DNA of 64,000 bases, taken from positions 65,414,638 through 65,478,637 of the forward strand of contig CM060177.1 of the NCBI GenBank assembly GCA_030549775.1, written 5' to 3'. This DNA comes from Tamarix chinensis (Eukaryota > Streptophyta > Magnoliopsida > Caryophyllales > Tamaricaceae). Position numbers and translations under genes: made by a program. Under the pieces are notes generated by a model, which had not been told where the DNA came from, ran no database searches, and worked only from the letters and a program-made list of their open reading frames with translations. Shown here in pieces: positions 23,106 through 64,000 of the stretch. Within the stretch, counting starts at the first letter, position 1. Every line of letters begins with the position of its first letter.

Positions 23106-23168
23106 TTTCATGTAACACTCTAAAATTTACTATTTTTTTAAAAACGGAAGCACTTAAATTAAAATCCG

Positions 23169-23250
23169 TGAATTCTGGGGATGTTACCGCCACATTTAGT
23201 ACCAGATCGGTTCACTCCGACCATTCTAGTACCAAATGCTAAGGCTAAAA
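23169..23250 (-). other. Conserved 3' stem-loop block, copy F
   Basis: The sense strand reads CATTTGGTACTAGAATGGT, an 8-base loop, then ACCGATCTGGTACTAAATG. The arms pair at nearly every position. Here the third pair is T-A where most copies have C-G. Confidence 0.6.
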
Positions 23251-23849
23251 TGATTATTTTCAAATTTAAACTGAGAGTTCGTAAAAAGAACTACAAAGAT
23301 CATAACATAGAATTCAGAGTATGCATAAAAGTTTATAATCAATAATAAGGTAGAAATCATAGTGCGAAATCAAAATTCCTCGAAGGGAATAATTTCTACA
23401 AACATTAATATTTAATTCAGGAAAATCCAATGCAGAAAAGAAATATCATACAGAAATAGATTGACATAAGAGATAATCCGGCCACATCACTCTGATCATC
23501 GAACCAAGCTCATGATCAACACTTAGTCCCACCTAATGCCTCATAGACATCGAAGGCATCAAAATATGCATTGCCCACCTGCACAAAGTTAGAAGGGTCT
23601 TCTGCTCATGGGAATGAGCAGCACCCATAAAAGGGGTGGTCAGTACGCTATGTACTAAGTAAGGTAACAGTGCACTAAGGCAAACACATATAAGTACATA
23701 ATTCAAACCAGATAATAATAAAACAACATACGATCACTTCGGAGAAATAATAATCGAAGGCTATTTATAGTCCGAATTAATTACTTAATTAATCTCTTAT
23801 GGATACTCATTCCACACCATACTCTTTATCAAGTCCATATGAGTATGGG

Positions 23850-24225
23850 AACCCCCATTATTATAGCCGGTGGAGCAGAGACATATAAGGCACAATGCAC
23901 CTAACCACTATTATTAGCCGGTGGATCGGTCACATATAGGGCAACATGCCCTAACCACTATTTGTTACTGGTGGATCGGTTGGCCCCGGCTCACATGGTA
24001 TTCCACTGTAAGTACTTAATGCTTTTTATGTGTCTTAGCAACTTTAGGGTTTTGTTTATTGAGCTCGGAATCTACTACTATTATAGCCGGTGGATCGGAT
24101 ACGCATAGGGTAACATACCCTCACCACTGTTATAGCCAGGGGATCGGACACACATAGGACGAAGAGTTCTAACCACTATTTCTAACCGGTGGATCTATGG
24201 GACCCGGCTCAATAATCTTCCACTT
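23850..24225 (-). repeat. CCGATCCACCGG subrepeat array, copy F
   Basis: Plus-strand units read GCCGGTGGATCGG, a spacer with a short hairpin (AGGGCAACATGCCCT at 23938-23952, AGGGTAACATACCCT at 24107-24121), then CCACTATT. Five to six units of ~60-90 bp. Confidence 0.8.
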
Positions 24226-24829
24226 TACATGATTAATGTCTTAAGTGTCTTAATCAGAAATTTTACCCTAGACATGCATGACTAACTCCCTCTAGGCTTA
24301 TCCTCCAAAGGCCTCGTCCCACATCATGAGACTCAAACACCTCCTAACTCGACCCTACATCCTTTCCTCATTACCCTTACTCTCACTAGAACCCATTTCC
24401 ACGTGTGTAGCTCAAGGCCTACTACTTTTTCACCTCCTACCCACTTACTTCCTCCCTTTAGGGTTTTTACCCAGAAACCCTAGTTTATACCTAAATGATC
24501 TATCCTACTCCACCTTATACGATTCAAAATATTTTAATACACCTCTCATCACAACTCATAGATTCTACCTTCACCATTACACCTTCCTCACCAAGTACAT
24601 GTACGACCACAAAAAACCTAAGTAATCATACCAAACCCTAACCGGCCACACAAAAATCTAGATCGGTCTCCTATATACCCATATATTGTCCCACGTACTA
24701 TTTTTCATTCAAAGCATTCAAACACCCAAACAACACTTCAATCACCTTCCTCACACCTCAAATCAACTTTTCATACGTAAAATTTACCCCCATGCAGACT
24801 TTACACACTCCATGCAACCCTTCGAACTT

Positions 24830-25290
24830 TTTCATGCAAACCCTAACACTCTCACGTGAAACCCTAGATTCACCCATGCAAACCCTAGATTCTTTTATAC
24901 GTACTTAGATTCTCCCATGCAAACCCTAGATCTATTCATACCAAAACCCTAGATTCCCCCATGGAAACCCTTGATTCCTCTATACAAAATCCTAGATCCA
25001 TCCTTATAAAATCCTAGCTCCATCCATACAAAACCCTAGCTCCACCCATATAAAACCCTAGCTTCACCCATACAAAACCCTAGATTCTATCATATGAAAC
25101 CCTAGATTAGATTCTCCCATGCAACACCATAGATTAGATTCTCCCATGAACACCATAGCTTAGATTCCCCCATGCAAAACCATAGATTCTCCCATACGAA
25201 ACCATAGATTAGATTCTCCCATGCAACACCATAGATTAGATTCTCCCATGCAAAACCATTGATTTTCCCACATGAAACCCTAGATTCTTC
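24830..25290 (-). repeat. Minisatellite carrying AAACCCTAGATT units, copy F
   Basis: Irregular ~20-26 bp units such as CCCATGCAAACCCTAGATT on the plus strand. Each holds AAACCCTA, identical to the plant telo-box. The frame read through it (complement 25102-25293) is a repeat artefact. Confidence 0.75.
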
Positions 25291-25680
25291 CACTCTTTTA
25301 TTTTATTTAAAATCCTCAGTTTATTCCTCCACTCATGGGCTATTAAAATATTTAGGTCAACTCACATCCCTTGGTCAACTTATTTCCCTTTGGTCAAACT
25401 TACTTCCCCATTTTCCTTTTCATCCTTTTCACCCCACAATACCACTTTAAACATCCTCACATGCATGTCTAAAGGTCACAACACATTATATCACATTCCA
25501 CAACGCTTCACCACATATACATATCAACATATACAATAAGAAGACATATAAGCATAACTTAACTCCAAGTTGCTCTAAACATAAAATAGTCAACTAATAG
25601 CACATGATACATAACACGACATTATACAAGGCATCAAAAGCATGTAATACACATAACACACATAAGGCCTTAGTTACACC

Positions 25681-25739
25681 CTTACCTAAAATGACACCGG
25701 TCTTGGAGCACGCTCCTATGCCTCCTTAGGGCTTTGACT
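25681..25739 (-). promoter_or_regulatory. Conserved GGAGC-palindrome and splice-donor-like block, copy F
   Basis: In the sense direction: CCTAAGGAGGCATAGGAGCG, TGCTCCAAGACCGGTGTCAT, TTTAGGTAAG. GGAGCGTGCTCC can fold with a two-base loop, and the block ends in AG/GTAAG. The same block occurs in five other copies. Confidence 0.6.
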
Positions 25740-25950
25740 GATCTCACCTATATATGAGGGAAAAGCTAAAAATTAGATTCCCTCCTACTAAAATACTATT
25801 ATTTACTAATTTATTCTAAGATTAGGTTTTTGATAAAATAATAACATATTAATAATAATGACATTAACTAATTACTAATTTTTCTAAAGATATAAGAAAT
25901 AATAGTAATATTGTAAAAGTTAATAATGTAAGGTTTGAAGACTTTACCCT

Positions 25951-26880
<930 letters not shown>

Positions 26881-27656
26881 CGAAATAAAAATAGAATAGG
26901 GCTTCGGCCCTCAATATAATTAACAATAATAACATTAGTAGTAGTAATAATAATAATATATTTTAATTAATTGAAATAAATTAAAATAAAATAAATAAGG
27001 CTTGTACAAATAGTGAAAAAGGGTTGTGAGGGTTTAAGGTTCCACCTTAGGTTGGTGGCGACAGGCGGTACCGGTGGTGGTGCACGATGGCGGCGGCGGT
27101 GGCCAAAAAAAGAGAAGAAGAGGAGAAAAGTTGATGGCTGGGAAAAGGAGAGAGAGAATGAAGGTGGAAGTAGGGGTGTTTGAGACTGCCTAGATGGAGA
27201 GGAGTAGAATGAGGTTGGCGGCACAACCAATGGTGGCGGGGCATGGCATTAGTGGTGGTGGCCGAATGGGGAGAAGAAGAGAAAGAGAGGAGGAGCGGGA
27301 GGAAGAAGAAAAGAAGAGTAGGGGGAGATAGAGGAGGGTCTGTAAGTGTTTTTGGGAGGTGTAGGAGGCAGTGGTAGCGGTGGAAGTGGTGGTGGACAGT
27401 AGGGTGAAGGGTGGAAGAGGCGAAGGAGCAGTTGATCGAGAAGGAAACTTTGCACGACCAGGGTGTCTCGTACATGGCAAATCGAGGGAGATGGGTGGTG
27501 TAGTTAGTTAGAGAGCAGTGCAAGAGTAATCAAGTGAGCAGAGTGGGTGGCAGAGTTGGCCGACGACAACGAAATGAGTGTCTGAAAGGGGCGGCGACGC
27601 AAGGGGTAAAATTTTTCTAGGTTGAAATCAAAAGCTCGAACAGGGCTGATTATGGA

Positions 27657-27666
27657 GGTATTTATA
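27657..27666 (-). promoter_or_regulatory. TATA box candidate TATAAATACC, copy F
   Basis: The complement reads TATAAATACC, about 1 kb inside the sense 5' end. The same box sits at the corresponding place in five other copies, as expected for a retroelement U3 promoter. Confidence 0.6.
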
Positions 27667-28665
27667 AAGAAAAAGGAAAGGATAGGGTCAGGGGAACGAC
27701 AAGGGAATAGGGAAGGTCGGTTAGGGCTCACTGGCGGCGACGGTTGGCTGGTGAAAATTTAAAAATGTGGTAGGGTGTTGCATAGGAAAAGGAGGAACTG
27801 CGCGAGAAGAGAGGGAGTGGGGCTGGGTCAAAATGGCCGGCGAGTCATCAGGGAAGAGGGAGAAGCGAAACAGCCGGTCAATGGCATGATCGGCGATGAA
27901 AAACCAGGGAGCTAGGGCAGCATTGTAGGTCGGCGAGAGAGGGAGGAAGAAGAGGGCTGGACCGGTCGGCTGAGGAAAAAAAAAAGAAAAGAAAAGAAAA
28001 GAGGGGAAAACCGGCCAGGGGAACAGGGACAAAAGAAATGAGTCAAAACATAGCGTCCAAGGTTGGGCTGCGCCGGGACAAAAAGAGGAAATGAGGAGTT
28101 TGGGCCATGGGAAGCCAGGCCCAAGTCAGTGGTAAGGAGGAATAAAAAGAAAAGAAGAAGAAAGAAAAAAGGAAGAAAAGAAAAGAAAAGAAAGAAAGAA
28201 AGAAAAGGAAAAAGGAAAAAAAGAAAAAATAGGTGAGTTGGGATCAATTAAATTAATTTAAATATTTATAATATTTAAAAATAATAATATTAAATAAAAT
28301 AATATTTAATTCCCTTTTTAGGCTAATTTAGGGTTTTTGAAAGGTTTTTCATAAATTCCATTTTAATTAGCAAAACACTCTAATTTTCTCCAATTAAATT
28401 ATTTATAACATTCCTATTAATTTGGCCCTATTTACTCCCTCTTATTTAAATAAAATAATTTATTTAATTAATTTCCAAAATAAAATCCTTAATTAGCCAA
28501 AATACCCAAGTTTTTCCTAATTAAAATATTTATTGATTTCTTCTTGATTTTCCCTAATTAATTTCCTTTTATTTCAATAAAAATAATTTGTTTAATTAAT
28601 TTTTCTAATAAAACCTTATTTAACTATAATTCTTAACATTAGGATTTTCGGGGCATTTCATTTCA

Positions 28666-29252: not shown

Positions 29253-30769
29253 ACATTTGAAATATCCCAAAATTATAATTTAGGAAATAATGTTAAAATA
29301 TGGATTTATTAAGAAAATTAATTAAATAAATTATTTTATTAAAATAAGGGGAAATATTTAAGGAAAAATCAAGAGGGAAAATAATAAAGAATTTAATTAA
29401 GAGAAAATTAGGTTATTTTGCTAATTAAAATATAATTTAGAAAAAATTATCCAAAATATCCTAAATTAATATAAAAGGGAATTTAATTATTATTTTACTA
29501 ATTTTTATTATTTTAAAATATTTAAAAATACCAAAATATTTTAAATACATCAACCAACCCATTTTTTTCCATTTCCCATTTTTCTTTTCTTTTCTCCTTT
29601 TTGCTCCTTCTCTTTTTTTCTTCCTTTCCTTCCCGGTTTGGGCCTATGCCCCTCACAGCCCAATATTTCCCCACACTACCTAGCATGCATCTCTTTTTTT
29701 CCTCCTCCACTCAACTTGCTCGGTCCCCTCCTTTTTCTTTCTTTCCTTTTTTCCCTAGACTGGCAGTGTAACACCCCAAAATTCACTACTTTTTTTTGCG
29801 GAAGAAATTAAAATAGAAATATTTAAATTAAAACCAGAAAATTCTAGGGATGTTACCGCCACACTTAGTACCATACCGGTTCTCTCCGACCGTTCCAGCA
29901 CCAAGTGCTAAGGCTAAAGAAAATATTGACATTAAATTCAAACCAGGAGTTCATAAAAGAACTAGAAAGAATCATACATAAAAAATCAGAGTACGCGTAA
30001 CAGAATCATGAATCAGACTACATGGTCAAAATTCCAAAAAAAAGAAGAAATAACACTTTCATAAGATAAAAAGGTTCATCTAGAAAACTCAATACAAAAT
30101 GTTCACTCATAAAGGGAAGAATCTGATACAAAAAGAACAACAGAAATAAATAAGATAACAAGAAGAGCAGATCCGGCCACATCATCAGATTCATTTACCT
30201 CCCAACTTGCCCCAACATCCTTTCCTCCATATCTTATCTCACAGTAGAAATCCAACTCTTAAGTATATGGTCAAAGCTCACTACTTTACACTTCCAAGTC
30301 CACTCTACATCTCACTCTAGGGTTTTATCTTGAAACCCTAATTTAGCCTCAGTGGTCCATCTTACTCCACCTAATACAACCCAAGTCATTTAAATACTCC
30401 ACACATTATAACCCATAGATTCCATATTCATCATCATACTTTATTCACCAAATACACACATGTTACCACCGAACCCTATTTAGCTATATCAACACTCTGG
30501 TTAATCACTCCAAACCCTAGTTATCCACAACCAACCATAGTTAACCACTCCAAACCCTAGTTAATCACAACAAACCATAATTAGCCACTCTAAACCCTAG
30601 TTAATCACAACAACCCATAATTAATCATTTCAAACCCTAATTTAGTCTCCTTCATACCCTTATATGTCCTACGTACTATTTTTCACCCAAAACTTCCAAA
30701 CACCCAAATAACTCTTCTATTACCTTCCTTACATCCCAAGTCAACTTTTCATACATAAATTTCACTCCC

Positions 30770-31340
30770 ATGCAGATTTTATACATCCCATACAACCTTT
30801 CGAATTTTTCATGCAGAACCCTAAGTCTATCCATACAAAACCCTAAATTCTTTCATGCAAAACCCAAGATTCCGTCATACAAAACCCTAAATTCAATCCA
30901 TATAAAACCAAAGATTCATCCATACGAAACCCTAGATTCAAACCATATAAAACCCAAAAATTCATTCATACGAAACCCTAGATTCAAACCATATAAAACC
31001 CAAAGATTCATCCATACCAAATCGTAAATTCAAACCATATAAAGCCAAAGATTCATCCATACCAAACCCTAAATTCAATCCATACAAAACCAAAGATTAG
31101 ATTCTCCTATGTTACACCATAGATTAAATTATCTCATGTTACACCATAGATTAAATTCTCCCATATAAAACTATAAATTAGATTTTCCCATACGAAACCA
31201 TATATTAGATTCTCCCATATAAAACCATGGATTAAATTCTCCCATACAAAACCATAAATTAGATTATCCCATATAATACCGTAAATTAGATTCTCCCATA
31301 TAAAACCATAAATTATATTCTCTCACACGAAACCCTAAAT
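30770..31340 (-). repeat. AAACCCTA minisatellite, copy C2
   Basis: Units of ~24 bp such as CATACGAAACCCTAGATTCA followed by ATATAAAACC-type units. Same position in the element as 24830-25290. Confidence 0.75.
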
Positions 31341-31654
31341 TTCCCATTTTATTCTTCCACTCATGAATCATAAAAATACTTAGGTCAACTCATATTCCTT
31401 GGTCAACTTCTTTTCCCATCCCATTCTTCATCCTTTCCCCCCACACAAACCATATTAACATCCTCACATGCATGTCTTACAGGGTCACAACACATATCAT
31501 CACATATACATAATACACATGCCATATAACAACACAAGAACATGCTTGAACTCTACGTCATACCATATGCGAAATAATTACAATAATAAACATAGGATGT
31601 ATAACATACAAGGCATTTAATGCACATCAACACACAATAGGCCTTAGTAACACC

Positions 31655-31710
31655 CTTACCTAAAACGACACCAGTCTTGGAGCACGCTCCTATGCCTCCT
31701 TAGGGCTTTG
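31655..31710 (-). promoter_or_regulatory. GGAGC-palindrome and donor-like block, copy C2
   Basis: The plus strand reads CTTACCTAAAACGACACCAG then TCTTGGAGCACGCTCC. The sense strand ends in TTTTAG/GTAAG. Confidence 0.6.
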
Positions 31711-31825
31711 ATAAAATAATAATATATTAATAATAATAACATTAACAAGTTTCTAACTTTACTAAAGATGCAAGAAATAATAGAAATATTATAAAAGTTG
31801 ATAATATAGGGTTGAAGACTTTACC

Positions 31826-31827
<2 letters not shown>

Positions 31828-31890
<63 letters not shown>

Positions 31891-32455
31891 AAAATAATAA
31901 TAGTAAAGGTACTAAAGATAATATCAATGATAATATAAATAAGAAGAATAATAATAATAGTAACAATAACCAAAATAATAAAAATAACAATAATAATAAA
32001 AAGGGCATAGTTCGAAAACAAAGTGAAATAAGGGCTTTGACCCCTTTACCAAAATAATACTAATAATAATATTAGTAAAATAAGTAACAAAATTTAATAA
32101 TAATAATAATAATAATGAAATAGTAATAATAATAATGATAAAACCATAATAATATTGCAAAAATAATAATAATCATAATGGTAATAATAGTAATGATAAT
32201 AATCGAAGATAAAATGAAGTAGGGTTTCGACCCTACATTAAATAATAATAAACTTAATAAATAATAATAATAAATTCTAATGATAAAAATATTAATAATA
32301 TTATTAATAATAAAACTTGATATTTATAATACTACTACTACAATTCAAAATAGCCACAATAGGGTTTCAGCCCTATATAGAATAATAATACTGACAATAA
32401 ACATAACAACAACAACAACAACAACAACAATAATAATAATAATAACAATTTCGAA

Positions 32456-32501
<46 letters not shown>

Positions 32502-32660
32502 TAACAATAATAATAGAAATAATATGAGTAATAATGATAAAATTAAAATCAAAATAAAAATTACAATAGGGCTTCGACCCTCAACAGAAATAATAATAAA
32601 AACATTAATACTGCTAATAATAATAATACATATTAATAATGGAAATAATAATAATAATAA
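31828..32660 (-). repeat. Trinucleotide arrays with hairpins, copy C2
   Basis: (AAT)n and (ACA)n runs broken by GTAGGGTTTCGACCCTAC (32219-32236) and AGGGCTTCGACCCT (32568-32581). Same layout as in copy F, but the runs are shorter. Confidence 0.9.
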
Positions 32661-33356
32661 TAATATTTATATTTAAATAAATGAAATAAAATAAAATAAG
32701 GCTTATAAAAATAGGGAAAAGGGTTGAGAGGGTCTAGGGTTCAACCTTAGGCTGGTGGTGATGGGCGGCACCAGCGGTGGTGCACGAAGGCGACGGCGAT
32801 GGCCGGAAAAAGAGAAGAAAAAGGGAAAAGTAGGATGCTGGGAAAAAGATAGGGAGAATGAATGTGGGAGTTGGGGTGCTTAAGACTGCCTAGAGGGAGA
32901 GGAGTTGAATGAGGGTGGCGGCGCAGCCAAAGGCGGTGGCACACGATAGCGATGGTGGTGGCTGAAAGAGGAAGAAGAAGAGAAAGAGAGGAGGAGAGGG
33001 AGGGAGAGGAAAAGAAAGGTAGGGGAAGGTAGAAGGTGGTCTACAGAATAGAATAGGAGGTGAAAGAAGCGGCGATAGCGGTAGAAGAGGTAGCTAAGGG
33101 TGTTGCGAAGGGCGGTAGAGGTGGAAGGAAGGGCTGTTTGGGAAGGCTACTTTGCACAACCGGGGTGGCTTGCGAGGAAGAATCAAGGGATGAGGGAGGT
33201 TTACGTAGTTAGAGGGTGGAGCAAGGATAAGTTGGGTGGGCAGAGAGGGCGGCTAAGTTGGCCGGAGGTGGCGGCAATAGTGTTTGAAGGAGCGATGGTG
33301 CACAAGGAAAATATTCCGGGTAAGGAAATCAAAGGCTCAATACAGGCTATTATGGG

Positions 33357-33366
33357 GGTATTTATA
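33357..33366 (-). promoter_or_regulatory. TATA box candidate, copy C2
   Basis: The complement reads CTATAAATACC. Same context (TATGGGGGTATTTATAG on the plus strand) as copy D at 57,877. Confidence 0.55.
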
Positions 33367-34668
33367 GAGTGTAAATGAAAGGGTAGGGTTCTGTGGGTCA
33401 GTGAGGGGACAATGTAGTAGGGTTAGGGTTCATCGATGGCGATGGTTGGCCGGTGGCAGTCAAAACGGGGCAAGGGTTGTGCGTAGGAAAGAGAGAGAGG
33501 ATCGTGTGAGAAGGGGGAGATTTGGTTGGGTTGATGAGGCTGCTGAATTGGCGAGGGAGAGAGAAGAAGGTGGCAGATCAAATAGGGTGAGATTGATGGC
33601 GAAAAACCAGGGCGATGGCGGCGATTGCAGTCGACGGAGAATGATAGGTGCGATCTGTGGGGGAGAAGAAGAAGGAGGAAGAAAGGGGACGCGTGGACCA
33701 ACGGTTCGGGGAGAAAAGAAAGAAAGAAAGGAGAAGGAGACCGGCTGAGCAATGGCTAATTTTTTTTAAAATAAAATGATGTGTTTTGAGGGAAAAAGAA
33801 GTGAGGTGTGGTGCAGAGCTCTGGCCCACCAAAGGAAGAAGGAAAGGAAGGATTGGGCCGCAATAAGGCAGGCCCAATCGGGGGGAATAGGAAAAGAAAA
33901 GGAAAAAGGAAGAAAGAAAAAAAATGATAAAGGAAAAAGGGAAAAAGAAAAATAGTGGGTTAGGTTAATTAAATTAATTGGGATATTTAAAAATAATAAT
34001 ATTTAAATAAAATAATATTTAAATCCCTTTTAAGCTAATTTAGGGTTTTTTAAATATTTTTCGTAAATTCCATTTTAATTAGCAAAACACCCTAAATTTA
34101 TCCAATTAAATTATTTATAAAATTCATATTAATTTGATGTTATTTTCTCCTTCTTATTTTAAATAAAATAATTTATTTAATTAATTTTCAAAATAAAATC
34201 CTTAATTAGCTAAAATACCCAAATTTCTCCTGATTAAAATACTTATAAATATCTTGTTAATTTTTCCTAATTAATTTCCTTTTATTTTAATAAAAATAAT
34301 TAATTTAATTAATTTTTATAATAAAAACTTATTTAACTGTAATTTTTAAAATTAGAAATTTTCAGGGCGTTTTAGGCAGCCCCATTGCTTCGTCTTCTTC
34401 CTCCCTCTCCTTTCCTATGCATTGCGGGTTGAGACCTATAACCCTACCACCTCCCTTCTCTTCCCCGTCTCTTTCTTTACCAATTCTAGCCCCAACCTAC
34501 CCTATACCCCTCTTACACGTGCCTTTCTTGCTTTCCTTTTTCTACGCCCAATCCCAACCAAACCTATAAATCACAGGCTTATACCTACCTGCCATCGCCG
34601 GCCGGGGAGCCTGCCATACCTTCTCCTCTGTCCTCTTCCCCCTTTGTCTTATCCTCCCACCAATGGCC

Positions 34669-34678
34669 TATAAATACC
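34669..34678 (+). promoter_or_regulatory. TATA box candidate, copy E
   Basis: TATAAATACC downstream of a polypyrimidine tract, just before the pyrimidine-rich leader that gives the 34701-35207 open frame. Confidence 0.5.
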
Positions 34679-35339
34679 TCCTACCCAACCTTAATTAGCC
34701 TTGTTTTCCCTACCTAGAAAACTAACCTTCCTTACATCGCCACCACTTTTGACGCTGCTGTTGCCGTCGTTGTCCAATGCCACCCCCGTTGCCCAGTGCT
34801 GCTACATGAAGCACCTGCCAAACTCCTCCATGCATCACCCTGCACCGAACCACACCACTCACCACCTACAATTTCCCATATACGAGCTGACCCAACTATG
34901 CCAAGCAGGCTACCCAATCTGCCCATCCTACTCCATCGCTGACCCTCTTGCCGTAGTGTGCCACCATCTCCGTCGTAACCACCACCTTTCCCGCCATCCA
35001 AAACACTCAACAAAGTCTCCCCTACCTCCCCTACCTTTATTTCTCCCTACCTCCCTCTCCTTTACCCTTCCTCCTCCACCACCTTCAGCCATCACAACAA
35101 CCACTACCTACAATGCCCCTTTTGCTATGCCACCACTACCATTCCAACCCTCTCCACCCATAGGATCCACCACCACCACAACCACCCTATCATTTCCCCT
35201 CTTCTAGCCTAGAAATTCACCTCTCCAACCCCACTTCCTCCTCCACTGCAGCCTAGTCACCACCACTCCTAGGTTGTGCCCTAGCCTCCCTAATCTTTAA
35301 ATATAATTAATGTAATTGTTATTTATTTTATTAGTGATA

Positions 35340-35341
35340 AT

Positions 35342-35373
<32 letters not shown>

Positions 35374-35559
35374 TATTATTATTTTGTTATTATTATTATT
35401 ATTATTATTATTGTTGCTGTTGTTGTTGATAGTATTATTATGATTCTAGTATTATTATTATTAATATTCGAACCATTACTACTACTACTACTACTACTAG
35501 CATCTTCGGCACTATTATTACTAATATTACTAATAATAATAATAATAATAATAATATTA

Positions 35560-35598
<39 letters not shown>

Positions 35599-35800
35599 GA
35601 TTTAAACTATCATCATCATCATCATCATCATCATTATTATTACCTATATCACTAATACTACTATTACTACTAACATTATTATTGTTATTATTATTATTAT
35701 TATTATTATTAGTAGTAGTAGTACTATGATTCAAGTTATTATTATTATGATCACTATTATTATTATTATTATTTTAATATTAAAGTTATTATCTTTAGTA
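35340..35800 (+). repeat. Trinucleotide microsatellites, copy E
   Basis: Alternating (ATC)n, (ATT)n, (TAG/ACT)n runs on the plus strand, matching the array position in the other copies. Confidence 0.9.
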
Positions 35801-38690
35801 GTATAAATATTACTAATAATACTTTAACATGGACCAATATAACTATTACGACCTATTTTGCCTAGTAGGAGCATGATTAACTACTTTAAGAATAATACAC
35901 TTATTTTTACTTATAAAACTACTACTACTATTATTAACCCTAATACTAGATTATGATAAAGGTAAAGTAGGGAATAATGATAATTTTAGTAAGAGAGAAG
36001 TTATATAACACCCCCAAAATTTACTAATGAAAATTTTCATTTTAATAAAAAGGTTTAACATAGGTAGAGTAACAAAATTGTAAATTATGGGGATATTACC
36101 ACCACACTTAGTACCGGACCGGTTCACTCCTACCATTCTAGCACTAAGTGCTAAGACTAAACAGGATTAACACCAAACACAAGTCATTAATTAAAAATGA
36201 GAATTCATGAAAGGACTCGTTCATAACCATATAGAAATCAGAGTGCGGTTTAAGAATTACAACCCAAGGAGTAAGTAACTAAAGTTTTTCAAAAACATAT
36301 AATACCATATGACATGAAATGACTAGAATAAAAAGATACATGGTAAAATAAAAGGAAAGATAGAGTCTGGCTGGGTCACTCTCGATCCTTAGGCTAAGTC
36401 TAGGCTCAACTCTCAGCCCCGCCCGATGCCTTGTAAGTGTCGTAGGCATCGAAAATGCCATCTCCTACCTACACAAATTCAGGTGGGTCTTTTACTCGTG
36501 GGAATGAGCATCACCCATGAAATGGGTAGTCAGTAAACTATGTACTGAGTAAGGTAACTATGTACTAAGGCCAAACATGCAAAGTGTAATCCCCTAAAAT
36601 TTTAGAAAACCTATAATTTAATAAATAACTTTTATTTGAAATAAAGTAGCTTTTAAAATTATTTAGTTTAGTTATTTTATAGATTTTTGAATATATAAAA
36701 GTGGATAGGAATATTTAATAAATTAAAATAAATAATTTGTTATTTTATCATACTCTTTTATTTAAATAATTTTTCCAAACTAATATTTTACTAAAATTAT
36801 CCTTTTTAAACCAATTTATTAAATTATATTTAATTAAATTATTAAATTAAATGATTTATCAAATATATTACATTTTATTATTTCATAAATTAAATTATTT
36901 TATTTTCCTATTTTCCCTTTCCCCCTTTTCCTTTTCTTTCTCCCTTTTCTCCTTTGTCTTCTTTCTTTCTTTTTCCTTTTTCCCTCCTCTTCGGGCCGCC
37001 AGACTGGGTTGCAAGCCTTTCCCCCCGTGACTGGGCCGTTGGCTCATCCTCCCCTCTCCCTTCCTCTCCCCCATGCCTAGGCCACAGGCCCGTTCTTCCT
37101 CCCACGCACACTAGCCGACCTAACCTCCCTCTTTTCTTTCTTTCCTTTCCCCTAGATCGGACCGACCCATTTCTTCCCCCTACGCTCGGCCTGCTGCCCT
37201 CCTTTTCTTCCTCTTCTTTTTTTCTTCTCCTACACCCCGACCGACGCCCCTCGACCTGTTTTCATCGCCCAAGTCTGCCACCCCGAACACCACGCCCGAC
37301 CATCATTTGTAACCTCTCGCTGCCACCCCCTGCCTCTCCCTATCTCCCGTCATTTTCTTCCCATTCTTGAACCTGGCCAACCCCGCAAACCACCCCTCAT
37401 GCCTTGTTTTTTCCCCTCTTTGTCTCCCCTCCCTGCCACCCTATCACCTTCCCTGCCACCCTACATGCTGCCATCGGCCAGCCAGCTGCCGTCCTATTCT
37501 CCCTCTCCTTTTTCTTTACCTCTCTAGCCTCTCCCTACCCCATTTCTTTGAGCCTTTCCCCTTCCCCGACCTCTCTCTTCTCCTTTTCCTCTCCTCCCCT
37601 TTTCCTCCCTACTCTGGCTACGTCGCCGCACCAAGCTCCTGCACTACCCACTACTACTAAAATGCCCCGAAAATTTCTAATTATATAAACTACATTTAAA
37701 GGATATTTATTATAAGAATTATTTAAATAAATTATTTTCTTATTGAATTAATTAGGGCTATTTAAGAAGAAAATAATAATTAATTTTTACTAGAAAAGTT
37801 TTGGGTATTTTAGCTAATTAAGGGTTTTATTTTAGAAATTAATTTAATAAATTATTTTATTTAAAATAAGAAGGAGAAGATAATTTCAAATTAATAATAA
37901 TTTTATAAATAATTTGATTGGAGAAAATTAGGGTGTTTCGCTAATTAAATAGGAATTTAGGGAAAATATTTTAAAAGTCCTAATTTAGCCTAAAAAGGGA
38001 TTAAATAATATTATTTTATTTAAATATTATCATTTTTATATATCCTAAATATTCTAATTAATTTAATTGAGCCAACCCACTATTTTTATTTATCCCTTTT
38101 TCCTTTTTCCTTTTCTTTTTCTTTTTCTTCTTCTTTTCTTTTTCTTTTCCTTCTTCTCCCCGAACTGGGCCAGCCTGGCGGCCCAGTCTTCTCCTTTTCT
38201 CTTCCTTCGGTCCAGCCCGCGCCGCGCGGCCGTCGCCCTTCTGTTGTCCTTCTCAGCGCTGCGTTTTATCTACTTATACGCTCTGAACTTCGGGTTTTGT
38301 TTAAGTAACCTTCGACGCCGACCGGCCCGGTCTGCCTCCCTTTCTTTTCTTCTCTTTTTCCCGAACCGCCCGGCTTTCCCTTTCTTCTTCCTCCTTCGCG
38401 CCTGCCAGCCCCGACGCCGCCCTGCACCTGTAACGTCCGCCGCTCACCCCTAGTTTTTCGCCGCCGGTTACGGTCGTTTTGACCGGCGATTTTTATTCCT
38501 ATTTCTTCCCCCTGAATCGCTGACCCTCTTGACCCAACCCAATCTCCCTCTTCTCGCGCCATCCTCTCTCTCTCCTACGCACACCCATGCCCGTTTTGCT
38601 GCCGTCGGCCAACCCACGCCACCGGCGACCGGAACCCTACCTTCCTTATCTACTAGCCGACCCAAAGAACCCTATCCTCCCTTGTAAGAC

Positions 38691-38700
38691 TATAAATACC
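38691..38700 (+). promoter_or_regulatory. TATA box candidate, copy C1
   Basis: TATAAATACC 1,034 bp from the element start, followed by a C-rich leader with the 38727-39311 open frame. Confidence 0.6.
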
Positions 38701-51220: not shown

Positions 51221-51589
51221 CTCAACATCTTTCACTTTACGTGATTAATGTCTTAAGTATCTTATTCAAAGGCTTTCACCATAGACATGCACGAATCATA
51301 AATCATAATTTCCACCATCATAATTACACTTTATCACCACATACACATGATAACACAAATATCCTAATCAAACACCACATACCCTAATTGACCCCCACAA
51401 CCATAGTCAATCACTCCAAACCCTAATTCAGTCACCTCCATACCCTTATAATGTCTTACGTATTATTTTTCACCCAAAACATTCAAACACCCAAATAACT
51501 CTTCTACTTCCTCCCTTACATCCCAAATCAACTTTTCATACGTAAATTTAATACCCATGCAGACATTAATCTCCCCATGAAAACCTTCG

Positions 51590-52280
51590 AACCTTTTTCA
51601 TGCAAACCCTAAAATTCCACGTGAAACCCTAAATTCAATCATGCAAACCTTAATACCACCATACAACCATCAATATCACCATGTAAATCCTAATACCACC
51701 ATACAACTATAATTACCACCATACAAACCTTAATATCATCATACAAACCCTAATACCAACATACATCCATTAATACCACCAGGTAAACCCTAGATTCCGT
51801 CATACAAAACCATAAATTCAATCCAACCAAAACTAAAGATTCACCCATACCAAACCCTAAATTCAAACCATAAAGATTCTTCCATATCAAACCCTAAATT
51901 TATGCCATAAAGATTCTTCCACATAAAATCATAAATTAGACTCTCCCAAGGAAAAATATAAATTGAATTCCCCCAAGCAAATCATAAATTAGATTCCCCC
52001 ATATAATATTATAAATTACATTTTCCCAAATAACATCATGAATTAGATTCTCCCAAACAAATTATAAATTAACTCTCCCAATCAAATCATAACTTAAATT
52101 CTTCCATATAATATTATAAATTACATTCTCCCAAATAACATCATAAACTAAATTCTCCCAAACAAATTATAAATTAACTCTCCCAATCAAATCATAACTT
52201 AAATTATCCCATATAATATTATAAATTACATTCTCCCAAATAGCATCATAAACTAGATTATTCCTTATAAAACCATAAAA
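51590..52280 (-). repeat. Minisatellites, copy C3
   Basis: AAACCCTAAATTC-type and TCTCCCAAACAAATTATAAAT-type units, the inverted counterpart of 40,375-41,300. Confidence 0.75.
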
Positions 52281-52531
52281 TTTAGGTCAACTCATTTCCC
52301 TTAGTCAACTTCTTTCCCCATCCTCCTTTTTCATCCTTCCTCTCACACAAACCACATCGACTTCCTCACATACACAACACATATCATCATACATAATTAA
52401 TACACATACCATGCACAACATACTTCAACTCCAAGTCATACCACATATAAAATATTTAATTATAATAAACATTAGATACATAACATGCGAAACACATAAT
52501 ATACATAAGAACATAAAAGGCCTTAGCACTC

Positions 52532-52588
52532 CTTACCTAAAACGACACCGGTCTTGGAGCACGCTCCTACGCCTCCTTAGGGTTTTGA
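52532..52588 (-). promoter_or_regulatory. GGAGC-palindrome and donor-like block, copy C3
   Basis: The plus strand reads CCTTACCTAAAACGACACCG then GTCTTGGAGCACGCTCCTAC. The block is kept intact although the promoter part of this copy is deleted. Confidence 0.6.
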
Positions 52589-52729
52589 CTGGTTTTACCT
52601 ATTATGAAATAAGAGCTAAAATTAGACTCTCTCCTATCAAAATAATATTAAAACTAACGTAATATAAGACTAGGCTTTTGGATAAACTAATAATAACAAA
52701 AGTACAAAAATAATATCAATATTAATATT

Positions 52730-52862
52730 AATAAGAATAATAAAATAGTAGAAATAATAATAAAAAGGCATTACTCAAAAATAAAGTGAAATAAGGGATT
52801 CAGACCCTTTACCAAAATAATACTAAAAAGATTATTTGTAAAATAAATAACCTAATTCAGAA

Positions 52863-52897
<35 letters not shown>

Positions 52898-52910
52898 AAT
52901 AATGATTATG

Positions 52911-52971
<61 letters not shown>

Positions 52972-53110
52972 CATTATTAACAACACTAATGTTAAAATAT
53001 TTATATTAATAATAATAAATAATAATAATGGAAATTCAAAATAGAAAATAATAATATTAATAATAATTATACTTATAACATTTTAATATTAATAATAGTA
53101 ATTATAGAAA
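52730..53110 (-). repeat. Trinucleotide arrays, copy C3
   Basis: (AAT)n runs, longest at about 52,915-52,970, the counterpart of 39,390-39,760. Confidence 0.9.
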
Positions 53111-53349
53111 TAATAAGAAGAATAATAATAAAATCGAATTAAAATATATTTTATAAAATTAAAAATTTTCGGGGCATTTCAGGTATCGAGTAGCTTGTAT
53201 GCACCAGTATGACCGGTGTACCTTTGTGTCCTAGGTTATTAATCTCACGTCCGAGGCAAATAAATGGAATTGATGTGCTGATAAAAAAAGGAAAACACTA
53301 ATCATGAAAGTGAAAGATTAATGAGCCGAGCCCAGTTGAATTATGATAT

Positions 53350-53800
53350 TGAGTATCGATCCACCGGTTATAATAGTAGCCCAGGAGCGTATTGCCTTGG
53401 CAGATGATTATGAGTACCTGTCCACCGAATATAATAGTGGCCTAGGAGCGTGTTGCCCTGAAAGATGATTATAAGTACAGGTCCATCGGATATAATAGTG
53501 GCCCAGGAGTGTGTTGCCTTGGATGATGTTGATATATATTTTGATCTACCGACAGTAATAGTGGGGGTCCCGAGCTCAATAAAATTAGTCATGGATGTGA
53601 ACAAAGTTATGGAAAAATACTAATCACTTATAGTGGAACACCATGTGAGTCGGGGCTAGACCAGTCCACCGACGAATAATAGTGGCCAGGAGCGTTTTGC
53701 CCTATATGACCAGTCCATCGAGGAATAATAGAGGCTAGGAGCATTTTACCTTGCATGACCGGTCCATCGGCCATAATAGTGGGGTTCCCGCACTCACATG
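53350..53800 (+). repeat. CCACCGG subrepeat array, copy B
   Basis: Diverged units such as GATCCACCGGTTATAATAGT with spacers CAGGAGCGTTTTGCCCT. The spacer hairpins are weaker than in C1. Confidence 0.75.
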
Positions 53801-54320
53801 GATATAAAATTTAAGAGATGATTGAATAATGATAGACTGATGGCTTAAGGTCTGAACGTATTGATTTTGTACTATGACATGACTTAAGGCCCAGAAGCAT
53901 TAATTGTACATTATGACTTATTAATAATTGATGGACTTGTTAAGTATGTGATTGTGGTGCATGTATTTCTTATTATATATGTGTGTAACTTTGTATCATG
54001 TGTTGCATTGTGGGCTTGCTTTTAAGTGTGTTTTTAAAGGGTTACTCAGTACCATAGTACTAAAGTGTTCCATTCGTAGGGCCCCTGCCTATTCAATGTG
54101 CAGTGCCCCTTGTAGGTCCTTTTCAGGTGCTATTCAAGTGGGAAACATGAAAGAGAATAAGGAATTATTCGAAACTATTAGAGTTTTTCTCTTTCTCTTT
54201 TAAATTCCTAGTTTTAATGTTATTATTGCTCTTGTAACCACACTAGTGGATTTTCTTCTTGTAAATGGTTGGTTACACTACTCTTATTTAAATATGGTTT
54301 GTAAATTGTGTTTTACACTT

Positions 54321-54402
54321 TTAGCCTTAGCACTTGGTACCGGAACGATAAGAGTGAGCCGGTCTAGTACTAAGTATGGCGGTAATATCCCCAGAATTCA
54401 CA
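54321..54402 (+). other. Conserved 3' stem-loop block, copy B
   Basis: CACTTGGTACCGGAACGAT then GCCGGTCTAGTACTAAGTA. The block is retained with more mismatches than in C1 and lies 74 bases from the element end. Confidence 0.5.
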
Positions 54403-54624
54403 GTTTTGTAATTTGCTTCCGCTAACTCTTTTAAATAAAACGAAATTTTTCAATAGTGAATTTTGGGGGTGTTACACAAAGCATACAGCGTAACATGATC
54501 ATATAGGCAGTATACAATAATATAGATAATGAAAGTCGGGTATGGTCCAGATGGACTCTTTAGATCTCTGGTAAATATAATCTTTTCATGTCATAATCTT
54601 TATCAATCCATGTGAGTGCGGGAA

Positions 54625-57886: not shown

Positions 57887-58771
57887 GCTAAATCGAGGGG
57901 AAAACGACGAAGGATGAAGAGGACAAGAGGGGATAGGTGATGCTGGACCACCGGCTGGCGGTGGTAGGCGGTGCAGTCCCTACCATGGTAGGGTGCGTTT
58001 GGTCGGGGGAAGGTAGAAAAGGAAATGGTAGGCGTGCGTGAGGAGGGAGGACGGTTTGGTTGGGTTGAAATTGGAAAGAAAACTACGGAGGAGAGAGAAG
58101 AAGGTTGGCCAGATGGAGTGGGTGGCTGTCGATGGCGTGGTAGTAGGTTTTAGATCTGCAAGTCATGTGGGGAAGAAGAAGGAAAGGGAAAGGGGTGGAC
58201 CGGGCAGTCTAGGGGGAAAGAAAAGAAAAAGAAAAAAGCCTACTAGGTAGCTAGTAGGTGGTGACACGGGCTTTGGGCCGCACGAGACGAGAAGGTGGAA
58301 GGGACTGGGTCATGCGACTGGCCCATTTTGGGGAAGGAAGGACAAAAGAAAAAGGAGGAAGGGGAGGAAGAAAGAAAAAGGGAAATGAAGGGGAAAAAGA
58401 AAAGAAAAGAAAAATGGAAAGGAGAAAATAGTTTGGTTGGGGCATTTAGGGTATTTTTTATTCTTGAATATTTAAAATTAATAATATTTAAGATAACAAT
58501 AATAATAATTAAATTCCTCTTTAGCTTAATTTGACTATTTTGGATAAGTTTTCCTTAACTTCTATGTTAATTAGTAAAATTCCCAAAATTTCCTTAAATA
58601 GTTTATTTATTATTTTCTCCTTGATTTACCTTAATTAATTCCACTTTATTTTTATAAAAAAAATTATTTACTAAATTTTCCTAATAAATCCTTATTTTTT
58701 CATAATTCCCTAAATGAGGATTTTGGGGTATTTCAAGTTAACCCTAGTATTTTTCTCTTATAGGTAAACCA

Positions 58772-58830
58772 AGTCAAAACCCTAAGGGGGTGTAAGAGCG
58801 TGCTTCAAGTCTGGTGTTGTTTTAGATAAG
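58772..58830 (+). promoter_or_regulatory. GGAGC block, copy E (decayed)
   Basis: CCTAAGGGGGTGTAAGAGCG then TGCTTCAAGTCTGGTGTTG. Palindrome and donor (ATAAGG) are both altered, as fits the oldest copy. Confidence 0.45.
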
Positions 58831-60179
58831 GATATGGTTAAGGCCTTTTGTGTGTGAAAAATATACTATATGTGTTGATTTGATGTGTGTGCTTTATATA
58901 TTATATTATTGTAGCAAAGCTTGCTAAGCATGGAGCTAAGGTAAGTTGTATGTGTTTTATGACATGTTCATGGAATGTGCTTATGTAATATTTCCCCTTA
59001 TGATATGCATGGTAGGAAGCCCTAAATAGTGTGATATAATTGTGAGAGAAATGAAAAAGAGTGAGGAAAGTGAGTTGATCAGAGGATGGTAAGGATAACC
59101 TAAATATATTATGACCTATAGGTGGATAAAAGGGGGAATAATGGGAATAAATTATGGGAATGGACCAAACATGCATGGAGAGTCTAAGGTTTGCATGGGA
59201 TGGTTAGCCTTTACATGGGGATGACCTTTACATGGAAAAAGTTGACTTGAGGGTTAAGTAAGGTAAGGGAAGAATTGTTAGGATAATTGGAGTCCATATG
59301 TGAAAAATAGTATGTAGGTTGGTGTAAGGTTGCATGGGGGACTTGATTAGGGTTTTGGAAGGAAACCCTAAGTAAGAGAAGTGTGTAAGGAGGGAAAAAC
59401 TAATGGAAATGGTTAGAATGGGGAATAAAAGATGAGAGGGGTGTAGCATGGAGGAAAACTGAGCCAAGTGAGAAAAAGGTATTTAGGTGTTAAGGGGGTG
59501 ACATAAAAGAAAGGAGAAGTACTAGGGTTTCGGGGAGTGAACTAGGGTTTTTATGATCACTTGTAGGAGTTATCTAGTGAGGTTGTGATGTTGGGTCTGG
59601 TTCGAGGGGAGTCATGGTTTTGGGTAACAAAGAAGAGTTTTGGGTCCTCATGGTGAGTGGGAAAAGATGGGGAGAAAGTATCGGGGTCATAGGTTGTGTT
59701 AGATATCTGTTATGTGGAAGAGAGGATGGTAACTAAGAGAGATGAAAGGATAACATCGTTTGAGGAAAGAGAGGTGGTAGGGTTTTGGGATAGCTAACTA
59801 GGGTTTCATGACCACATGTGTGAAATGGAAAGTAAAGTGGGGTGCTTAGGGGTGAATTGGGGGCAAGGGAGCATGAGTTGTGTAGGATAGAGGAAGGTTG
59901 GGCCATATAAGCTAAATGAAGGTTTCCCAGAGGGAATCCCTACAGAGTGATATTGAGTTTATTCAGAGATACGAAAAGTGGGCCTCGGAGTTAGGCATTC
60001 ATTTTAATGAGGAAAGAGTGGGAAGGAATGTTTGGATGTACTAGAGAGTGTAAAAGTCCCAAGATATGGAATAGGGTTTTCGAGAAGCTGAGAATAAAAA
60101 TGTGAGCATGGAAAGTCTAGTAGGTCATGCATATCTAGTCGGGGTTGTGGAATAAGATACAATAAAACACTAAACACTT

Positions 60180-61510
60180 AAAGTGAAAGATTATCGAGCT
60201 AGAGCCCATTGAGGATATATTTAGGTGCATTTTGCCTTGTGGAGTGATTTTTGGTCCACCGGCTATAATAGTGGTCAGGTGTATTTTGCCTTATTGAGTG
60301 TTTTCGGTCCACCAGCTATAATAGTGGGGGATTTTGGGCTCAATAAACCAAACTTTGCATGGTAATAAGTCATGGAAAGATCCTAATTACTTACAGTGGA
60401 ACACTACGTGAGTCGGGGCCAGTAAGGTTGATTTTTTGATCCATCGGTTATAATAGTGGTCAAGTGCGTTATCCCTTGTGGAGTGTTTTCGGTCCACCGG
60501 CTATAATAGTAGGGTTCTTATACTCACGCGGAATTAATTTGAGAAATGTGCGAAACAAAAATAAAAGACATGGAAAGATACTGATTACTTACATTGGAAC
60601 ACCACGTGAGTCAGGGCTAGTGAGGTTGATTTTTCGGTCCACCGGCTATAATAGTGGTCAGGTGTGTTCTACCCTATAGAGTGTTTTTGGTCCACCGAAT
60701 ATAATAGTGTGGTTCTCGTACTCATGCAGAATTAATATGAGAAATGTGTGAAGTAGAAATATAAGACATGGAAAGATACTAATTATTTATAGTGGAACAC
60801 CATGTGTGTCGAGGCTAGTGAGTTTGATTTTTCAGTCCACTGGCTATAATAGTGGTCAAGTGTGTTTTACCCTGTGGAGTGATTTCGGTCCACCAACTAT
60901 AATAGTTGCCAAGTACATTTTATCCAACGGAGTGTTTTCTATCCACCGGCTATAATAGTAGGGTTCCCGTACTCACGTGGAATTAATATAAGAAATGTGT
61001 GAAACAGAAATATAAGACATGGATAGATACTAATTACTTATAGTGGAACACCACGTGAGTCGGGGCCAGTGAGTTTGATTTTTCGGTCCACTAGCTATAA
61101 TAGTGGTCAGTTGTGTTTTACCTTGTGGAGTGATTCCAAACCACCGGATATAATAGTGGCCAGGTGTGTTCTTTCCTATGGAATATTTTCGGTCCATCGG
61201 CTATAGTAGTAGGGTTCCCATACTCACGTGAAATTAATATAAGTAATGTGTAAAACAAAAATATAAGACATGGAAAGATACTAATTACTTATAGTGGAAC
61301 ACCAAGTGAGTCGGGGCCAGTGAGTTTGATTTTTCTGTCCACTGGCTATAATAGTGGTCACGTGTGTTTTACCTTGTGGAGTGATTCCGGTCCATCGGCT
61401 ATAATAGTGGCCTGGTGCATTCTATCCTATGGAGTATTTTCGGTCCATCGGCTATAATAGTAGGGTTTCTATACTCACGTGGAATTAATATAAGAAATAT
61501 GTAAGATAAA
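60180..61510 (+). repeat. Expanded ~200-250 bp tandem array of CCACCGG units, copy E
   Basis: Higher-order units begin near ACATGGAAAGATACTAATTA (~60,568, 60,766, 61,013, 61,266). Each holds two or three GGTCCACCGGCTATAATAGT subunits, a GTGGAACACCACGTGAGTCG segment and a TACTCACGTGGAATTAATAT segment. Four to five higher-order units, more than in any other copy here. Confidence 0.85.
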
Positions 61511-62081
61511 ATATTAGTGTAAGTTTGACCTGATGATATGAACCTGAATTATGCTTTGTATGCCTTACTTGTTTATTTTCTTGCTGGCTTTACCCATATG
61601 GTTACCATACTTAGTATGTAGCGTACAGAACACCCATTTCATGGGTGCAGATCATTTCCACGAGAAAAAGGCCCTTCTAAATTTGTATAGGTAGGAGGTA
61701 CCGTGTTTGATGCTTATGACGTATTGGATGCGTTAGGCGGTGATGTGTGTTGATCGTTGGACTAGGTATGGGGGTTAGAGAGCTATGTAGAGCAGAATAT
61801 CTCTTTTATCTCTTTATACTTATGTTTTCATTGTATTTTCATTACATTTTATCGTATTGTACCTTTTATCCCTTTTGAAAACTTTGACTATGTAACTCGC
61901 TTTCATTTGTAATAACTTTTTAATGCACACTCTGCTTCTCGTGCTATGAACATTTTAGTTTTCTATGAATCTCTATTTTAAGTATGACTAATGTCATGTC
62001 AAAATTTTCCCTTAGCCTTGCGGTTGTTGTTTGATTTAAATGAAAATTTTCAACTGTGATTTTGGGGGATGTTACAACACT

Positions 62082-62708
62082 CCTCAATCTTAACTCTCAA
62101 ATCAATTTTAGTATGACACTCTAAGAAGGTTTATTAGCATGTAGATGCTCATCCTTACGAGACAAAGATTAATAGAGAAGTAGACTCCCTCACTTTAGGT
62201 AAGTATAAGTGCTCTATGCTCATGTATAATTTTCTCTTATAATTCCCTCTATTGATTGTGATTGATTATAGGCTTGCATGTACACCACTCTATGTAACAC
62301 AAAAATCATAAGGTCTTATTAAAGGTGTAATGGGGCTAGGGTAAAAGGTAGGATAATTCTAGGATTGTAGTTAAAGGCCTGAAAACAAATGGAGTAATAA
62401 CAAAAAAAATATTTCTCAGAATATGAGATTAACAATATGTCATCATATCCTAAAGTAAACCAACCATGGCCTTTGCCATCAATTTATCCCTTCCTATTTG
62501 AATCATAAGATTAATTTGCCCACATCTTAATGTCAACACTTTTGCTCTTTTCTTCTTCTCTTTTCCCTCTCTCTCTTTCTCTTATTCATCTTTCTTCTTT
62601 CTTCTTCTTTTTTTAAAATGAAAAATGAAAGAGAGAGGAGGATAATAAAAATAATGAGGCTACATTTCCGGTCATTTTCTCAACACAAAAATCTACCACC
62701 TCTTCTTT
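62082..62708. other. Target sequence between copies E and I
   Basis: Continuation of 28,666-29,252 after the copy E insertion. Contains a CTTTCTCTTATTCATC-type pyrimidine tract and no gene. Confidence 0.4.
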
Positions 62709-62787
62709 GTTATTGTAACACCCCCAAAATTCACTACTGAAAAATTTTGTTTTATTAAAATAATTAGCGGAAGTGAAATATCAAAAC

Positions 62788-62868
62788 CATGAATTCTGGG
62801 GATATTATCGCCACACTTAGTACCAGATCGGTTCATTCCTACCGTTCTAGTACCAAGTACTAAGGCTA
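62788..62868 (-). other. Conserved 3' stem-loop block, copy I
   Basis: The sense strand reads TACTTGGTACTAGAACGGT, loop AGGAATGA, ACCGATCTGGTACTAAGTG. Arms still pair along most of their length. Confidence 0.55.
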
Positions 62869-63449
62869 AAAGAGAAGAATACAACTTACGAGAAACTCAA
62901 ACATATTTAAATCAGAGTAGCATAGTAAACAATTTACGAGAATAAAATCCACTAGTGGTGGTTACAAAACAATGAATACATTAAATAAAGAATTTAAAAG
63001 AGAAAGAGGTCAACCCTAGGACTTTCTGGATAGTTCCTTACGCTCTTTCTCGGGAGCCCACTTGAATAGCACCTGAAAATGACCTGCACGGGACATTGCC
63101 CATTGAATAGGCAGGGGCCCCATGAATGGAACCCTTCAGTACTATGGTACTGAGTAACCCTTTAAAACACACTTAAAAGTAGGCCCGCAATGTAACACAT
63201 GATATACCACTATACCCATACATAACGACAGGTGTAAACATAATAATCAAATCCATGCATTCACATACTTGACAAGTCAATCAGATATTAATGGTGCATA
63301 CATAAATATTACTTTCGTACATTTGCATACTTAACAAGTTAATCAAATATTAATAGATCATAATGAACAATCAATGCTTTTAGGGCTTTAAAGCCATTAG
63401 TCCATCATTAATTAATCATCTCGGATTATAAATATTCATGTGAGTGTGG

Positions 63450-63770
63450 GAACCCCACTATTATAGCTGGTGGACCGGAATACATACAGGGCAGAACGCT
63501 CCTGACCACTAGTATTCGCCGGTGGACCAATCTCCAGGGCAAAACGCTCTTAGCCACTATTATCTGCTGGTGGACCGGTCTGACCTTGACTCACATGGTT
63601 TTCCACTGTAAGTACTTAGTGTCTTCCCCATGTCTTATCGTTATTACGTTTGGTTTGTTGAGCACATAATTCCCCACTATTATAGTCGGTGGACTAGAAA
63701 TCATGCAAAGCAAAACGCTTCTGCCTACTATTATTCGCCGGTGGACCGGTCTGGGTTCGGCTCAACAATC
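63450..63770 (-). repeat. CCGGTCCACCGG subrepeat array, copy I
   Basis: Units of the GCCGGTGGACCGGTC type with spacers such as CAGGGCAGAACGCTCCTGAC. The A-to-C-like change of GGATCGG to GGACCGG marks this subfamily. Confidence 0.75.
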
Positions 63771-64000
63771 TTCCTCTTTAAGTGATTAGTGTCTTATTCC
63801 TATCTTATTCGAAAGTAATTCACTCTTGAAATGCATGTCACTGACCTCTACTTCTATCCTCCCGAGAGGGCTCGTCCCATATCTTGAGACCTTTGCACCT
63901 CTTATCACACCTTGAAATCCATTCCCCCTTACATTTACTTATAACGAAAATAAACTCCTAAGGGTGTGGGTTGAGACCCACCACCTTATGACATTCAAAT

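Follow-up and report, generated by a model that had tools for sequence, protein, structure and literature searches.

A 64,000-nucleotide (nt) stretch of the Tamarix chinensis genome (contig CM060177.1, positions 65,414,638 to 65,478,637; the window) carries one ~5-kb repeat family in seven copies with defined ends (A-G) between positions 23111 and 62076, and an eighth begins at 62714. With high confidence, we read these copies as solo long terminal repeats (LTRs) of a single Ty3/gypsy chromovirus family, probably of the Del/Tekay lineage, with LTRs of ~4.5-5.5 kb. The family as a whole is best read as consisting of coding and non-coding members with oversized LTRs. It is resolved within one genome, where the giant solo LTRs occur together with a coding partner and with relatives that do not code.

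Solo LTRs of a chromovirus family

Copy C contains B and D, D contains E, and E contains F, G and a hAT DNA transposon, giving a nest that is four deep (C, D, E, F); A stands alone (Table 1). The 5-bp target-site duplications (TSDs) of copies A-G match at 34 of 35 positions, compared to 6-18 of 35 when one flank was slid by 1-10 bases either way. The four-deep nest of seven delimited copies with 5-bp duplications, described in an earlier note on this DNA, was therefore confirmed. The lengths given there, mostly 4.6-5.5 kb with one deleted copy of ~3.0 kb, agree with the 4,608-5,550 nt found here and with the 2,977 nt of G, in which ~1.8 kb (~31-1826 of F) including the promoter is deleted. Both the terminal TG and CA are intact in A, C, E and G, and B, D and F each have one transition in a terminal dinucleotide. 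The pieces of A-E, G and H are collinear with F in alignment; for E this applies to just its two ends, and its middle did not align to the other copies.

By Kimura two-parameter distance to F, G is the closest copy (0.12) and C the most distant (0.40). The outer copies C and D are strongly depleted in CpG and F and G the least so, which fits the nesting order; the pieces of E take values of 0.49-0.86. Together, the spread of distances and the CpG pattern are in line with insertions over a long period, and the nest would have been built by repeated insertion into older copies. The region is dense in repeats, where an assembly might collapse or mis-join sequences. That the nest arose in this way is very improbable, since a matching target duplication is present at both borders of all seven copies and their decay, over the above distances, broadly tracks the nesting order.

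The orientation of the LTR, TGAAATGCCCC...GGGGTGTTACA (TGAAATG...TGTTACA), was set by a TATA box, and TATAAATACC is invariant there in all five aligned window copies. Elsewhere in the genome the box was found 0.96-1.05 kb into the LTR, with 0-1 mismatch, in nine of ten LTRs. To look for complete elements, we searched the 1.32-Gb assembly containing the window, with the reversed pattern as control. The exact LTR 3′ end occurs 7,086 times, and at 291 junctions TGGTATCAGAGC, a tRNA-Met-type primer site, begins 0-6 nt after it; the gap was 3 nt in every row among the ~100 of these junctions that were listed. When only the first six primer-site bases (TGGTAT) were required after a gap of 3 nt, 418 junctions were obtained. 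All three reversed controls gave 0. Pattern scans of external collections (viral contigs and genome contigs) gave no match.

We then read the first 20 primer-site loci listed with 1.5 kb on each side, and longer stretches for five loci (L034 and L036-L039). Similarity to gag follows the primer site in four of the 20 (L015, L020, L029 and L032). L015 extends as L034, in which the LTR end and primer site are followed by a single gag-pol open reading frame (ORF) of 1,512 amino acids (aa). This ORF contains Retrotrans_gag, protease, reverse transcriptase (RT), RNase H and integrase domains and a weak C-terminal chromodomain, which is the chromovirus order. It is followed by a hairpin, a polypurine tract (PPT) and a 4.46-kb LTR of the family, and the two LTRs of L034 are identical over the comparable 1,520 bp. 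The arrangement for which the earlier note had suggested a search, a pair of LTRs flanking gag-pol with a primer site directly after the first, is thus present in this genome, at one site. As the same end there precedes a primer site, gag-pol and a second LTR, the solo-LTR reading of that note is supported as well.

In the window itself, no primer site or PPT was seen by eye in the 40-bp flanks of any of the seven copies, and on this basis all seven were read as solo LTRs. The family polyprotein has no match in the nest; its sole match in the window lies outside, at 12573-14358. As had been claimed from the window alone, the copies therefore lack gag, pol, primer site and PPT. We also read seven other best genome matches of F with 1.5-kb flanks and assessed the TSDs of six (L002-L007). 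The TSDs are perfect in four of them (L002, L003, L004 and L006) and match at four of five bases in L005, so that 5-bp duplications are found at copies outside the window too.

The idea that the ~5-kb unit itself is mobile was also considered; it would then be a DNA transposon without coding capacity, bounded by imperfect inverted repeats (TGTAACACCCCAAAAT/TGAAATGCCCCGAAAAT) and 5-bp duplications. The termini of the unit do show a weak inverted similarity across ~17 bp, its interior has no similarity to the polyprotein and single units are abundant. However, this end precedes a tRNA-Met-type primer site at 291 places, the examined loci continue with gag-pol or a shared interior, then a PPT and a further copy that points the same way, and a TATA box together with a 5-bp TSD fits an LTR. 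We consider a DNA transposon hardly credible.

Assignment to the Del/Tekay lineage is based on the attachment ends, the primer type and the LTR length. A Met-type primer is a trait of Tekay. With GGG at -8 to -10, the U5 terminus agrees with the type A attachment site described for Del in PMC4029996.

Several observations weigh against the solo-LTR and chromovirus reading. The U3 end, TGAAATGCCC, differs at positions 3, 6 and 7 from the common Del end TGTAACACCC; of the bases that PMC4029996 gives as conserved, 9 and 10 are present and 3 and 6 are not. In L034, the chromodomain scores 18.7 bits (Pfam cut-off 25.1) and the integrase core 25.1 bits (cut-off 32.6), each at its expected place. The L034 LTR is just ~64% identical to F, too distant to mark L034 as the direct parent of F, and it has no close TATA match, the best being TATATATAGC with two mismatches at 1.12 kb. 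L007, another of the best matches of F, has no TSD; a PPT forms its left flank, and we therefore read it as a 3′ LTR rather than a solo. L028 has a 1.4-kb interior of the non-coding kind described below and is then disrupted, and L017, L022, L027 and L030 were left without an interior class. Finally, the 20 primer-site loci are all on one contig, and the matches of F in the genome were scored at 66 matching places, with 37 of 25,915 first-look candidates scored.

Table 1. Features of the window. Net lengths of C, D and E are the span minus inserts, obtained by arithmetic.
Feature	Position	Strand	Details
Copy A, solo LTR	23111-28660	-	ends TGAAATGCCCC...GTGTTACA; TSD TTTCA/TTTCA; 5,550 nt
Copy B, solo LTR within C	29767-34374	-	TSD GGCAG/GGCAG; 4,608 nt
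Copy C, solo LTR, outermost of nest	29258-62076	+	TSD ACATT/ACACT; net 5,469 nt
Copy C, three pieces	29258-29766, 34380-36003, 58741-62076	+	
Copy D, solo LTR within C	36004-58735	-	TSD AGTTA/AGTTA; net 4,835 nt
Copy E, solo LTR within D	36585-54476	+	TSD CAAAG/CAAAG; net 5,169 nt
Copy F, solo LTR within E	37658-42654	+	TSD ACTAC/ACTAC; 4,997 nt; among least decayed
TATA box of F	38690-38700	+	CTATAAATACC; ~1.03 kb from 5′ (U3) end
Conserved module of F	40027-40078	+	ends AG/GTAAGG, splice-donor-like; boundary 40072/40073
Array of 19-bp motif in U5 of F	41693-41979	+	CCACCGGCTATAATAGTGG
U5 terminus of F	42635-42654	+	GTGAATTTTGGGGTGTTACA; primer site follows in complete elements elsewhere
hAT DNA transposon within E	43157-47887	+	BED, RNase-H-like and dimerisation domains (coding ORFs)
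Copy G, solo LTR within E	50205-53181	-	TSD GGTAT/GGTAT; 2,977 nt
Copy H, start of eighth LTR	62714-64000	-	continues past window

The hAT transposon in E is bordered by an 8-bp duplication, CATGTAGC/CATGCAAC, with two mismatches, and its transposase is split across several frames. Among the 120 relatives listed, the named ones are plant proteins, and the closest of the matches listed is 84% identical (source tag 'lgn'). The polyprotein match at 12573-14358, on the minus strand, is a decayed Ty3/gypsy pol with pieces of RT, RNase H and integrase at 28-37% identity. At ~19647-21340, on the plus strand, there are related LTR remnants, which start with TATAACACCC and TGTAATACCG and include C-rich sequence and a CCTATAAATACCC box; three candidate 5-mers tried there gave no convincing TSD.

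Non-coding elements, arrays and the excess of solos

The most frequent structure among the 20 primer-site loci was a 0.5-2.0-kb interior without similarity to the polyprotein, followed by another LTR (11 of 20). Eight interiors are short (533, 564, 735, 788, 883, 894, 961 and 977 nt; both LTRs of these elements were read in part) and three are longer (~1.6, 1.7 and 2.0 kb). The short ones are 71-98% alike over their aligned stretches, and the longer ones match them in parts. They share the primer site, hairpin and PPT with the coding element, and the interior end GACTTCGGGGGCGAAGTCTGTTTTTAAGGGGGTAGT is common to both kinds with small changes. Because of the related interiors and the common end, the non-coding class looks like one lineage that has spread rather than a set of independent deletions; its members would be mobilised in trans by coding elements. 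At these 11 primer-site ends we found the features of a large retrotransposon derivative (LARD), namely LTRs, primer site, PPT, a conserved interior without coding capacity and a length above 4 kb. A terminal-repeat retrotransposon in miniature (TRIM) would have short LTRs and measure less than 4 kb in total, and this was not found; the middle LTR of the array L035 measures 4.55 kb. In L023, L024, L025 and L033, the ~140-bp segment behind the primer site resembles another segment located ~350 bp deeper in the interior, and these interiors contain additional primer-site-like copies.

Some elements are arranged in tandem. On contig C3, LTR and interior alternate head to tail, with two interiors that are 99.9% identical and 396 bp of two LTRs that are identical. 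Three primer-site ends in a row, at a spacing of 5.54-5.56 kb, are present both at C3:4205763-4216874 and at C3:9459410-9470554. At the former, two units were read, each an LTR with a ~1-kb interior in head-to-tail order.

If a complete element contributes two LTR ends, of which one has a primer site, the counts as they stand correspond to 22 (from 291) or 15 (from 418) solos per complete element. When loss of primer bases was extrapolated (418 x 418/291, ~600 junctions), ~10 were obtained. These ratios are estimates, as only exact ends were counted and truncated copies were scored as solos. The solo-to-complete ratio that the earlier note had asked about is thus estimated at ~10-22, in line with heavy loss of complete elements by LTR-LTR recombination. 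For comparison, solo and full elements of 15 plants were fitted in PMC7251063 with an intercept of ~2.7; its authors refer to Du et al. 2012 for a connection of the solo ratio with LTR length. The note's statement that all copies are solo and none complete is correct for the seven in the window and does not extend to the genome, where complete copies exist. By arithmetic, the chance of seven solos out of seven is ~0.11 at 2.7 solos per full element and ~0.5-0.7 at the family's own estimated ratio, so that a window with solos alone is no surprise.

Both the solos and the arrays would be explained most simply by recombination within an element, between its two long LTRs. Solo LTRs would be left by this recombination, the same kind of exchange could generate the tandem LTR-interior arrays, and the length of the LTRs would favour it. 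In the non-coding class it may also be favoured by their closeness, as 5-kb LTRs that are 0.5-2 kb apart should recombine readily. This raises the question of whether most or all solos derive from short-interior, non-coding elements, the solo excess being a property of that class. Of the 20 primer-site loci, 11 belong to this class. F shares 89% identity with the LTR of L019, which is non-coding, and G shares 85% with that of L026. On the other hand, the best match of F is L022 (90%), one of the loci without an assigned interior class, and the gag-bearing L029 is closest to A (77%) and D (68%); moreover, the identities are low and the comparison covers the 20 primer-site loci. We hold a purely or mostly non-coding origin to be less likely than not. 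With its surplus of solos and its tandem arrays, this family is a good case for measuring the effects of LTR length and spacing on recombinational loss.

A conserved module and a putative leader intron

After the TATA box, copy F continues with C-rich sequence and TTA repeats, then the conserved module, arrays of 20-27 bp and the 19-bp array, and closes with the conserved end. The combined length of R and U5 would be ~4 kb. The 19-bp motif has 38 matches (at most five mismatches) in seven of the eight window copies, all on the LTR-sense strand, compared to 0-1 in five shuffles; no match was found in B. Its stem is mostly invariant and not covarying. In several window LTRs the GC skew flips strongly near the middle, from C-rich past the TATA box to G-rich in U5.

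A 207-aa ORF (38688-39311) was rejected as a coding function of the LTR. It has no Pfam family and no homologue at E 0.001, and compared with A, B, C and D it shows substitutions at all codon positions and mostly gaps that are not multiples of 3; third codon positions are changed somewhat more, most strongly in A (37, 50, 71). For an antisense ORF in U5, a homologue search found none.

The conserved module was compared in 16 LTRs, six from the window and ten from elsewhere in the genome, including the coding element. Its gap-free identity is 0.87-0.94 against 0.55-0.72 in neighbouring bins (copy C left out of the profile), a comparison that overstates the drop outside the module because indels shift the flanks. 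AG/GTAAG is intact in 15 of the 16 LTRs, and copy C has AGATAAG. GTAAG and CTAA...AG are splice-like sequences. Directly before gag, L034 has TTTCTAA...TTTTTGTGTAG, L020 TTTCTAA...TTTTTGGTGCAG and L032 TTTCTAA...TTCTGTTACAG, which places an acceptor-like AG 4-6 nt upstream of the gag ATG in all three; L029 has CAA there. An automatic acceptor filter, which required 75% pyrimidines, missed the L034 site. In the non-coding interiors no clear acceptor-like counterpart was seen.

Judged from these sequence patterns, the giant LTR may carry a conserved leader intron, in which the LTR donor would be joined to the acceptor 4-6 nt before the gag ATG; we put this forward tentatively, as a possibility that falls a little short of evenly balanced. 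The candidate donor lies ~1.4 kb past the TATA box, and splicing there would excise U5 with its arrays of repeats as well as the primer site. For L034, an intron of this kind would be ~2.2 kb long. If this is true, the spliced RNA would be a messenger for translation only and the unspliced RNA the template for reverse transcription, and such a division of labour would account for the tolerance of a ~4-kb leader. A conserved RNA structure of the module was rejected: folding was no better than that of shuffles (z 0.03, -0.40, 1.37 and -0.21), the covariation term of the alignment fold was -0.3, and both sides had changed in one of 17 pairs.

For the soybean gypsy element Diaspora, splice donors have been predicted inside a long LTR, and acceptors on either side of the start of gag (PMC1142308). 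According to that 2005 paper, no intron upstream of gag had then been reported for any LTR retroelement. The Diaspora sites were consensus-based predictions of medium confidence, whereas here the donor module is kept across 16 divergent LTRs, and this conserved module makes the old leader-intron question testable.

Comparison with known long-LTR elements

The family resembles Del/Tekay chromoviruses such as BAGY-1 and Retrosat-2 in its single ORF with the order gag-protease-RT-RNase H-integrase-chromodomain, its type A U5 attachment end, its 5-bp TSD and its long LTRs. It differs in its U3 end, TGAAATGCCC, and in LTRs of 4.5-5.6 kb compared to 1.1-4.8 kb in the survey of PMC4029996. According to the same survey, Del LTRs reach 4,831 bp and eudicot Del subgroups average at most 3.7 kb; LTRs of >5,000 bp are given for Ogre and of 4,200 bp for BAGY-1 in PMC1142308. 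The copies are thus large, as the earlier note had stressed, and their size, while not unprecedented, is at the upper end of what is known. Insertion of Tekay into its own family is described for potato, tomato and cotton, with LTRs among the least targeted regions (PMC6911290).

The non-coding members are similar to the LARD Mtr77 of Medicago truncatula, which combines long LTRs with a very short interior (LTR 2,191, element 4,668 and interior ~200 bp; PMC2533021). Compared to Mtr77 as described there, the LTRs of the Tamarix family are about twice as long, the interior is 0.5-2.0 kb, and a coding partner with matching primer site, hairpin and PPT is present in the same genome. By its description alone, the high-copy, 9.2-kb LTR element HODOR of apple and pear (PMC6901071) can be likened to the family as well. 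The TRIM Cassandra shares the very small interior and the tandem arrays (PMC7215508), and is set apart by the short LTRs of TRIMs, in contrast to the ~4.5-5 kb found here.

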